Source: Euzebya tangerina (GTDB taxonomy: Bacteria > Actinomycetota > Nitriliruptoria > Euzebyales > Euzebyaceae). Taken from it: DNA of 64,000 nt. The notes under the pieces were generated by a model. That model was not told where the DNA came from. It saw only the letters and a program-made list of their open reading frames with translations, and did no database searches. Positions 28,572 to 31,226 of the stretch are shown piece after piece (position 1 is the stretch's first letter; every line of letters starts with the position of its first letter). Location: the NCBI RefSeq assembly GCF_003074135.1, contig NZ_PPDK01000001.1:2356001-2420000 (forward strand). Direction: 5' to 3'. Made by a program: the position numbers and the translations under genes.

Positions 28572-29285
28572 ATGACGCAGACCGACTCACCCGCCCAGTC
28601 CGAACCCGTCCGCCAGTTCCGCTTCCGGCTTCCGCCCGGTGGGTGCGACATCATCCTGGTTCGCCACGGCGAGTCCCAGCCGGCCGTTCCCGGCGTGGCC
28701 TTCCCGACGGTCAACGGGCAGGCCGATCCACCACTGGCTGACGAGGGCCACCGCGAGGCCCGGGCGATGGCCGATCGGTTGCGGCACGAGGACGTCAGCG
28801 CGATCTACACCAGCAGCCTGACCCGAACCAAGCAGACGGCGGCACCCCTGGCCGAGTACCTGGGGATCACGCCGGTCGAGGAGCCCGACCTGCGCGAGGT
28901 CTACCTGGGGGAGTGGGACGGCGGTGAGTACCGGATTCGGATGCGCAGCGGGGATCCGCTGGTGGCCGACATCGTCGCCCAGCAGGACTGGGCACCGATT
29001 CCCGGGGCGGAGTCGATGGCCGATCTCTGCGCCCGGGTGAAGCCGGCGCTGGAGCGCATCGCCGCCCGGCACGCCGATCAGCGTGTGGTGGTCGTCGCCC
29101 ACGGCGGCGTGATCGGAGCGGCGCTGCACCTGGCGACCCGCGCCGACCAGTTCGCGTTCGTCGTCTCGGCCAACGCCTCGATCTCACACCTGGTGATCAC
29201 CGAGGATCGGTGGATCCTGCGCCGGTTCAACGACACCGGTCACCTGGCAACCGATCTGGACAAGCCGGTTCAGCCCATGACCTGA
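28572..29285 (+). CDS. Histidine phosphatase (phosphoglycerate mutase-like) family protein
   Basis: A 237-residue protein with the RHG motif IILVRHGESQP near residue 30 (phospho-histidine) and the second catalytic His in VVVVAHGGVIGAAL near 180. Middle blocks AIYTSSLTRTKQTAAPLAEY and REVYLGEWDGGEYR are typical. Likely a phosphatase with broad or unknown substrate. Its last 16 bases overlap the end of the opposing DUF3097 gene. Confidence 0.9.
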   Translation: MTQTDSPAQSEPVRQFRFRLPPGGCDIILVRHGESQPAVPGVAFPTVNGQADPPLADEGHREARAMADRLRHEDVSAIYTSSLTRTKQTAAPLAEYLGITPVEEPDLREVYLGEWDGGEYRIRMRSGDPLVADIVAQQDWAPIPGAESMADLCARVKPALERIAARHADQRVVVVAHGGVIGAALHLATRADQFAFVVSANASISHLVITEDRWILRRFNDTGHLATDLDKPVQPMT

Positions 29286-30100
29286 TCGGGGACCAGGAAG
29301 TCCAGCAGCTGCTCCACCGCGCCGATCAGGGGGGTCTCGAGATCCGCGAGGGAGGAGACCCCTCCAAGGGCCCGTCGCCACACGTCACGGTGATCCCGGA
29401 CACCCAGCGCCGCGGCCACGCCTTCCTTCCAGGGGCGACCCCTCGGGACGTCCGGCCAGGCGGGCAGGCCGAGCACCCGTGGGCGGACACCGGCCCACAC
29501 GTCGACGTACGGGTGGCCGGCGATCAGGACGTGGTCCTGGGCAGCCTCGGCGGCAATGCGAGTCTCCTTGGAGCCCGGGACGAGGTGGTCCAGCAGGACC
29601 CCAAGTCGTCGTGTCGGCGACGGCTGGAACGCGCGGATGGCAGCCGGCAGGTCGTCGGCGCCGTGCAACGGCTCGACCACGATGGCGAGCTCACGCAGCT
29701 CCTCGCCCCAGACCTTCTCCAGCAGTTGGGCATCGTGTTTGCCCTCGACCCAGATCCGACTGGCGCGGGCCACCTTCGCGGTCTGGGTCGCGGCCACCCG
29801 CGCGCCGCTGGCGGAGGTCAGTGTGGCCGGTCGGGAGATGCCGACGCCGCCCTTGGTCAGCCGGATCGGCTTGCCGCCCTGCGCGAACCGGTCAGCTTCG
29901 AAGGGAAAGGCTCGCCGCCCCCCGTCGTCATCGGCTTCGAGGATCACGACCCCTGACTCGTACTCGACGACCGTTCCCTCGAAGCGGCTGACCCGGTCGG
30001 TCAGGCGGAGCCCGAGCCGGAGGGTCACGTGTCGTGGTGGCGGCTGCTTCTTGGCGGGCACGGCCAAGACGTCGGCCGCGTAGCGGGGACGGCGGTTCAT
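29270..30100 (-). CDS. DUF3097 family protein
   Basis: A 276-residue protein of the DUF3097 family, found almost only in Actinomycetota. Features seen: N-terminal RRPRYAADVLAVPAKK, an OB-like part (RFEGTVVEYESGVVILEADD), and a conserved toprim-like region (ASRIWVEGKHDAQLLEKVWG, LGVLLDHLVPGSKETRI, HVLIAGHPYVDVWAGV). The EGKHD and LLDHLVPGSK blocks resemble Toprim catalytic acids, hinting at nucleic-acid work; that is inference. Start chosen at MNRRPRYAAD, the family N-terminus. Convergent with the phosphatase gene. Confidence 0.85.
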   Translation of the reverse strand: MNRRPRYAADVLAVPAKKQPPPRHVTLRLGLRLTDRVSRFEGTVVEYESGVVILEADDDGGRRAFPFEADRFAQGGKPIRLTKGGVGISRPATLTSASGARVAATQTAKVARASRIWVEGKHDAQLLEKVWGEELRELAIVVEPLHGADDLPAAIRAFQPSPTRRLGVLLDHLVPGSKETRIAAEAAQDHVLIAGHPYVDVWAGVRPRVLGLPAWPDVPRGRPWKEGVAAALGVRDHRDVWRRALGGVSSLADLETPLIGAVEQLLDFLVPDQVMG

Positions 30101-30162
30101 GGGCGGATGACCGTACGACAGTGGCCCGCGGATTCGCTGCAACGGGGACGGGGACTGTGACT

Positions 30163-30179
30163 GTCAAGAAAGTCTTGAC
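30163..30179. promoter_or_regulatory. Perfect palindrome over the -35 element
   Basis: GTCAAGA-AAG-TCTTGAC, a perfect 7-3-7 inverted repeat. Its right arm contains the -35 TTGACG (30175-30180) of the Clp-N/HTH gene. A second palindrome lies 28 bp away centre to centre. Confidence 0.75.
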
Positions 30180-30203
30180 GCGTCCTGGATGTCAACCTAC
30201 GGT
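30175..30203 (+). promoter_or_regulatory. Promoter TTGACG-17-TACGGT, leaderless
   Basis: -35 TTGACG and -10 TACGGT with an optimal 17-base spacer. The expected start site falls on or next to the ATG at 30210. Both elements are covered by palindromes, so a bound repressor would block the polymerase. Confidence 0.7.
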
Positions 30204-30207
30204 TGAC
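30191..30207. promoter_or_regulatory. Perfect palindrome over the -10 element
   Basis: GTCAACC-TAC-GGTTGAC, a perfect 7-3-7 inverted repeat with the same GTCAA/TTGAC ends as the repeat at 30163. It covers the -10 TACGGT and ends 2 bases before the ATG. Probable operator pair. Confidence 0.75.
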
Positions 30208-30209
30208 GC

Positions 30210-31226
30210 ATGACCATTCCGCCATACCGCCTCGACGACCTGATCGCCGCCGTGACCGCTGACGGCCGTGCAGCCGACCCGCTCGGTGACGTCAGGCGCG
30301 CCGTCCAGACAGCCGAGCAGCTGGGGGAGTTGGCGGATCACCTGGTGGGCCACTTCGTCGACGAGGCCCGGCGCGCCGGCGCGTCGTGGGCCGACATCGG
30401 GGCCAACATGGGGGTCACCCGTCAGGCGGCTCAGCAGCGCTTCGTGCCCCCCAACGCCGATGAGCCACGGCCGGTCGAGCCGTCGGCCTTCGACCGCTGG
30501 AGCGAGGCGGCACGCGATGCTGCGGCCGCCGCCATCGAGCGGGCGCGCCAGGCCCAGCGCGACAGCGTGGGCGGGGAGGACCTCTTCCTCGGTCTGCTGG
30601 ACCAGCTCGACTCGATGGCCGAGCAGGCCTTCGAGGCCTTCGAGGTACCACTCGAGCAGGTCCGGGAGGCCGCACTCAAGGCCTTCGGACCGCCCGCCTC
30701 ACCTCTGGCGAAGCAGGGCGGCGACCGGCCAGAGACAACCTCGACCGAGGATGGCTCTGTCGACAGCCCAGACGGGTCGGACGACGCCCGGGGGACCGAT
30801 CAAACCGTCGACACCGTCGCCACCGACGAGGTCGACGAAGCCCACGAGACCGAGCAGACCGACGGTGACGATCAGGCGGACGACGCTGACCAGGCCGCTG
30901 CGACGGCCGGCCGGGACGAGGGGAGTGCCGGCTTCGACCGCGGCTCGACTCGCGACGAGGTGTGGGAGGCCTTCGAGCGAGCGGGTCGCCATCGCGGCCC
31001 GCGGCGCACGGACGAGCTGCCACCGTTCCCGTTCGGTCGGGACGCCTCCCGCTTCATCCAGATGGCCCTGCGCGAGGCCCTCCGGACCGGCAGCGGCTCG
31101 GTCGGCCCGGAGCACATGCTCCGTGGACTCCTCCGCGACGACACCTCACCGGCGTGGGCTCTCCTCCGCAGCCTCGGCATCACACGGGAGCAGGCGGAGG
31201 AGTGGCTCCGAGACCAGCGATCCTGA
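30210..31226 (+). CDS. Clp N-terminal repeat protein with N-terminal HTH (probable regulator)
   Basis: A 338-residue protein. An N-terminal helical domain has a helix-turn-helix-like stretch (SWADIGANMGVTRQAAQQRF). Two Clp-N repeat halves follow, one near residues 95-150 (GGEDLFLGLLDQLDSMAEQA) and one near 285-335 (VGPEHMLRGLLRDDTSPAW). They are separated by a strongly acidic, probably unfolded stretch of about 90 residues. No AAA module, so it is not a Clp ATPase. The two perfect palindromes in its own promoter suggest autoregulation, possibly sensing proteostasis through the Clp-N part; both points are inferred. Confidence 0.85.
   Translation: MTIPPYRLDDLIAAVTADGRAADPLGDVRRAVQTAEQLGELADHLVGHFVDEARRAGASWADIGANMGVTRQAAQQRFVPPNADEPRPVEPSAFDRWSEAARDAAAAAIERARQAQRDSVGGEDLFLGLLDQLDSMAEQAFEAFEVPLEQVREAALKAFGPPASPLAKQGGDRPETTSTEDGSVDSPDGSDDARGTDQTVDTVATDEVDEAHETEQTDGDDQADDADQAAATAGRDEGSAGFDRGSTRDEVWEAFERAGRHRGPRRTDELPPFPFGRDASRFIQMALREALRTGSGSVGPEHMLRGLLRDDTSPAWALLRSLGITREQAEEWLRDQRS

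Follow-up and report, generated by a model that had tools for sequence, protein, structure and literature searches.

The window, as we call the whole 64,000-nt stretch of Euzebya tangerina DNA analysed here, probably holds an autorepressor of the ClpC2 type, in which a helix-turn-helix (HTH) would bind two palindromes over the promoter of its own gene and a Clp_N domain would serve as the sensor; we put the probability of this reading at about 0.88. The locus is a new member of the ClpC2 family, because Taylor et al. (2023, PMC10030653) have already described autorepression and paired operators of this kind, and the main idea is already in print. What deserves following up is that the family may be modular and that the DNA-binding site may not be the published one.

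The repressor gene and its promoter

Two perfect 7-3-7 palindromes precede the repressor gene (Table 1), exactly as an earlier note on this DNA had reported; their 7-base arms are fully complementary, their starts are 28 bp apart, and 11 bp lie between them. The same note had the palindromes span the -35 and -10 elements, and the geometry of TTGACG and TACGGT fits, though a consensus promoter scan called no promoter in the operator region, because TACGGT agrees with TATAAT at only three of six positions. The assignment of the -10 element is backed by homologues, in which TANNNT stands at the equivalent place (site positions 8 to 13) in 33 of the 38 loci with a start close behind the site, and the promoter geometry suggests that the 338-aa gene is probably transcribed without a leader. 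The pattern GTCAA-N7-TTGAC matches twice in the window, both times at this promoter, and in 0 of 100 shuffles. The 4.78-Mb genome has five matches, two of them at this promoter and the remaining three (L001, L002, and L005) inside long open frames. Base composition predicts about 1e-6 pairs with 28-bp spacing per genome.

Table 1 Features of the repressor locus (window coordinates) and loci of the second candidate target
Feature	Position	Strand	Basis or remark
DUF3097 gene, divergent	29270-30142	-	Longest frame begins 21 bp away from operator 1
Operator 1, GTCAAGA-AAG-TCTTGAC	30163-30179	+	Exact; right arm is the source of the -35
Putative -35, TTGACG	30175-30180	+	17-bp spacer to the -10
Operator 2, GTCAACC-TAC-GGTTGAC	30191-30207	+	Exact; -10 inside; ends 2 nt 5' of the ATG
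Putative -10, TACGGT	30198-30203	+	6 bp to the ATG at 30210; TANNNT at the same place in homologues
ClpC2-type repressor gene, 338 aa, probably leaderless	30210-31226	+	Clp_N matches and ClpC2 structure match
Helix-turn-helix GASWADIGANMGVTRQAAQQRF, residues 57-78	30378-30443	+	Alignment with Rv2667, motif, model
Clp_N repeat 1, residues 93-160	30486-30689	+	Pfam, match to solved domains
Acidic linker between the repeats, residues 161-271	30690-31022	+	31 D/E and 11 K/R in 111 residues
Clp_N repeat 2, residues 272-333	31023-31208	+	Pfam, match to solved domains
FAD monooxygenase facing paired operators	L157-L159, L163-L167, L170, L171, L173-L175; plus L092, L093		

The protein has the HTH and Clp-N repeats that the earlier note had read from it: Pfam finds two Clp_N matches and does not call the HTH, which is recognised by alignment with Rv2667 (M. 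tuberculosis ClpC2), by its motif, and by a structural model. The N-domain aligns with residues 4 to 72 of Rv2667 in structure 8ADA (E = 5e-17), and its model (mean pLDDT 77.6) has helices at residues 60 to 67 and 71 to 78. Residues D43 and R54 align with the D46-R57 dimer pair of the ClpC2 N-domain (8ADA chain numbering) and are invariant among the compared sequences. A fold search with the N-domain model returned nothing at E ≤ 0.001 (best Z 4.7, Fis); the rows shown include many HTH proteins, at scores too low for a claim, and 8ADA is not among them. The two repeats match the Clp_N domains of solved ClpC2 and ClpC1. No packing was read from the full-length model, built from 3 sequences, because it is too poor (mean pLDDT 43.9).

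In mycobacteria, ClpC2 represses itself, according to EMSA, reporter, and deletion experiments (deletion of clpC2 derepresses the reporter), and binds the pseudopalindrome CGTCAAC-n5-GTTGACG 1 to 2 nt before its own ORF; the site is often doubled upstream, over the -35 and -10 elements, and the transcript is probably leaderless (PMC10030653). The window locus resembles this arrangement in both protein and promoter. Like Rv2667 and its M. smegmatis homologue, the protein joins an N-domain to a Clp_N domain, and the palindromes with GTCAA/TTGAC arms are likewise doubled over the -35 and -10, with the start 2 nt after the site. Operator 1 departs from the ClpC2 consensus in one symmetric pair, the sixth base being G...C where the consensus has C...G.

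At 338 aa the window protein is longer than most relatives (about 240 to 270 aa), and about 100 additional acidic residues split its Clp_N repeats, such that the conserved aromatics of the two repeats are 181 residues apart, compared with 75 to 93 in the other measured homologues (a range taken without L085 and L087, which have no Clp_N). The linker appears coding-like, with a GC3 of 0.82 versus 0.86 to 0.89 in the rest. Of the cyclomarin-contacting residues of ClpC2 (Q94, F96, F172, and E181), three were compared: F96 and F172 are kept as F, and E181 is replaced by Q. The N-terminal domain of ClpC1/ClpC also has two Clp_N repeats; these are contiguous in ClpC1, and the window protein differs further in its HTH domain in front and its lack of an ATPase part.

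Cyclomarin A hinders DNA binding by ClpC2, heat induces mycobacterial clpC2 about 2-fold, and ClpC2 protects casein at high micromolar concentration (PMC10030653). In a 2026 paper, cyclomarin was the sole inducer of ClpC2 among three ClpC1-binding peptides (PMC12913811). The self-repression through two palindromes proposed in the earlier note is well supported by homology to ClpC2 and by operator conservation, but it is not new, mycobacterial ClpC2 autorepression being published. Its suggestion that Clp_N is a sensor finds support in the effect of cyclomarin A in mycobacteria; sensing of misfolded protein is more weakly indicated, by the roughly 2-fold heat response and by casein protection at high micromolar ClpC2.

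By analogy with ClpC2, a dimer of the window protein would sit on each palindrome through its N-terminal HTH, and the bound repressor would keep RNA polymerase off the -35 and -10 elements of its own, probably leaderless, promoter. The Clp_N part is a homologue of the domain with which the ClpC protease docks its substrates, and would act as both sensor and sponge. Once a peptide antibiotic aimed at ClpC, or an unfolded client, occupies it, the repressor would come off the DNA, and the additional protein then made would soak up the ligand and spare ClpC. We infer by the same analogy that this autorepression operates in E. tangerina and what its ligands may be.

Two other proteins were considered. 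The N-domain also matches the structure of the RelI antitoxin (Rv2664; 9sdc, E = 2e-6), the HTH region of which is partly similar to that of ClpC2 and for which its authors describe no sign of DNA binding or of upstream inverted repeats (PMC13284704). RelI, unlike the window protein, has 85 aa and is without Clp_N; a RelI-type antitoxin is ruled out by the 338-aa length, the Clp_N repeats, and the gene's neighbours, which encode DUF3097 and DUF1206 proteins and not a RelS toxin. Ccr1 (447 aa), as described in PMC11272600, is unrelated.

Conservation of the paired operator

Most of the orthologous promoters examined, on which the earlier note had staked its proposal, carry the operator. The pair is present in the two named Saccharothrix orthologues and in Tsukamurella tyrosinosolvens EL451_RS14830 (annotated as a Clp_N gene), where the ATG lies 2 nt past the second site; in 44 of 52 loci, one or more GTCAA-N7-TTGAC sites, allowing a single mismatch each, lie near the gene. 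A pair is present in 36 of these 44 site-bearing loci, spaced 28 bp apart in 23 and 29 bp in 13, and the start falls 2 to 6 nt past the last site in 38. The eight loci without a site comprise L080 and L086, which gave no tblastn match, and L078, L081, L083, L084, L085, and L087, with no 7-base-centre site nearby; L080 carries 6-base-centre sites, and at L078 a 7-base pair (L178) lies at a greater distance upstream.

The conservation of the HTH in this set is partly a selection effect, because N-domain similarity was the main criterion by which the homologues were chosen; searches by DNA pattern are free of that bias. The pair pattern is very selective: a protein-blind search for 7-base-centre pairs recovered 32, spread over 30 of the 396 phylum genomes, with none from the reversed-pattern control. 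An HTH motif occurs within 1.5 kb downstream of 29 of the 32 (28 of L097 to L126, plus G280:C45, which is the clpC2 locus L063). L092 and L113 are without a downstream HTH motif, and L118 (G385) has an HTH match nearby.

Split operons and the DNA-reading domain

Pairs with a 6-base centre were found 48 times, in 46 of the 396 phylum genomes, and not in the control. Thirty of these pairs were taken into a locus comparison, in which a stand-alone HTH gene lies downstream in 30 of 30 and a Clp_N gene as well in 24, some of the tblastn queries having come from these same loci. The Clp_N gene follows the HTH gene directly in 23 and about 760 bp further on in L201, and 21 of the 30 have a start 2 to 4 nt past the site. 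HTH regular expressions missed seven of the 30 split loci that tblastn found, and the Clp_N expression missed the ordinary clpC2 locus L104. The window's own genome has the split form too (L080 998-1040, the same as L207, G000:C1:1561597-1561639): the operators GTCAACCTGGGTTGAC and GTCAACGTATGTTGAC lie 27 bp apart, an ATG follows 3 nt later, and the first gene encodes a 76-aa HTH protein, the second a 172-aa Clp_N protein. The genus has three other genomes; two are in the 396-genome sample, both with a 6-base pair.

The operator is also found with HTH-only proteins. These include L077 (95 aa) and L079 (93 aa), which have 1-mismatch sites and no Clp_N-like motif behind the HTH, as well as L177 (120 aa) and L157, L165, and L171 (about 90 aa each). 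Across the genomes compared, the paired operator goes with the HTH, also at loci with a separate Clp_N or none.

This distribution bears on the question of the DNA-reading domain. Taylor et al. assign the operator contact to the C-terminal domain, with its conserved arginine helix, from the weaker binding of the R185A/R189A protein; the matching double mutant raises in vivo expression 2.0-fold (PMC10030653). Under that account the arginine helix of Clp_N reads the DNA and the N-domain merely dimerises. The window protein keeps both arginines, and 30 of 40 full Clp_N homologues with an operator have R or K at each position; this set of 40 leaves out L067 (one repeat) and L077, L079, and L082 (no Clp_N). 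However, neither residue is present in 5 of the 40, which still have the operator, and the stand-alone HTH proteins carry it without any Clp_N. The N-domain mutant R57A has a larger effect on expression, a 4.6-fold increase, and the crystallised piece of the ClpC2 N-domain stops at residue 72 (PMC10030653), short of the recognition helix; alignment with the window protein places this residue at the turn before that helix, inside the HTH. The term helix-turn-helix is absent from the main text of Taylor et al. (PMC10030653). We consider reading by the arginine helix improbable.

A recognition-helix residue varies with the length of the operator centre. All 23 readable 6-base-centre loci have His there, whereas the 7-base-centre loci (n = 44) have Gln in 41, Phe in 2, and His in 1; among the 27 readable 7-base-centre loci found by DNA pattern, Gln occurs in 25 and His in 2. 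Contacts may explain this covariation, but so may the history of two subfamilies. The comparisons point to the N-terminal HTH, and not Clp_N, as the DNA-reading head, which is favoured because the crystal fragment stops early, HTH-only genes and split operons carry the operator, and a recognition-helix residue changes with the length of the operator centre. It is possible that the Clp_N domain stabilises the DNA complex. If the HTH does read the DNA, the published model, with cyclomarin covering a DNA site on Clp_N, needs revision, and the ligand signal would have to pass from one domain to the other. The split operons make sensor and repressor as two proteins that can be mixed freely, and would open this relay to a direct test.

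Other possible targets of the operator

The palindromes might instead be the sites of a different regulator, or might also control the divergent DUF3097 gene; shared control is possible with a DUF3097 frame starting as near operator 1 as in Table 1. We regard this as quite unlikely, since the operator travels with the HTH gene in homologues, and in the three same-genus relatives no site (at most one mismatch) was found at DUF3097 in the 5-kb stretches examined. These stretches also gave no ClpC2-like match beside DUF3097. In one such relative, an unrelated 218-aa membrane-protein frame (L096 3063-3719, minus strand) lies between DUF3097 and DUF1206, the place of the repressor gene in the window.

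A wider heat-shock regulon, predicted by the earlier note to include clpB/dnaK, would suit a protein-quality-control domain such as Clp_N and the heat induction of mycobacterial clpC2 (PMC10030653), but is very unlikely, as the genome search found no such promoter site among the five motif places and GTCAAC-N5-GTTGAC in 30 homologue-bearing genomes gave 72 matches in 27 genomes, 1 to 6 each, with 44 at clpC2 (summed by eye).

A larger regulon of a non-heat-shock kind, directed at an FAD monooxygenase, may exist in one genus. This is genus g77 (the genus of G112), which may be Nocardia (and g57 perhaps Streptomyces); 116 of its 118 genomes have at least one pair, and 44 have two or three (counted by eye). 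Among the matches listed, 20 further g77 pairs include 13 that face an FAD monooxygenase (Table 1), 3 that are clpC2, 2 between membrane-protein and PEP-swivel frames, and 2 before a methyltransferase-like frame, the neighbouring frames having been named by eye. In L157, L165, and L171 the stand-alone HTH gene is divergent from the monooxygenase, with its ATG 2 nt past the operator; in L163 the HTH gene is broken. Either ClpC2 or the stand-alone HTH protein may act at these operators. Against models of tetracycline destructase and rifampin monooxygenase, the FAD monooxygenase scores far below the cut-offs. A literature search, conducted for the most part outside subscription journals, found no account of an FAD-monooxygenase operator or of an operon of a stand-alone HTH gene and a Clp_N gene.

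Taken as sequence patterns, these loci make it fairly likely that the family is modular: the constant element would be a small HTH repressor on paired GTCAA-N6/7-TTGAC sites over a leaderless promoter, with Clp_N fused to it (7-base centre), encoded by the next gene (6-base centre), or missing, and the FAD monooxygenase operator in one genus would link drug sensing to an enzyme. If true, sensing of Clp-directed or other drugs would be tied to an enzyme that possibly acts on them.

Some of the FAD-monooxygenase operators are divergent from a PEP-swivel domain frame. The methyltransferase-like frame follows paired operators in two g77 genomes (L162 and L169), and small membrane-protein frames follow them in L178 and L179, with an HTH gene nearby.
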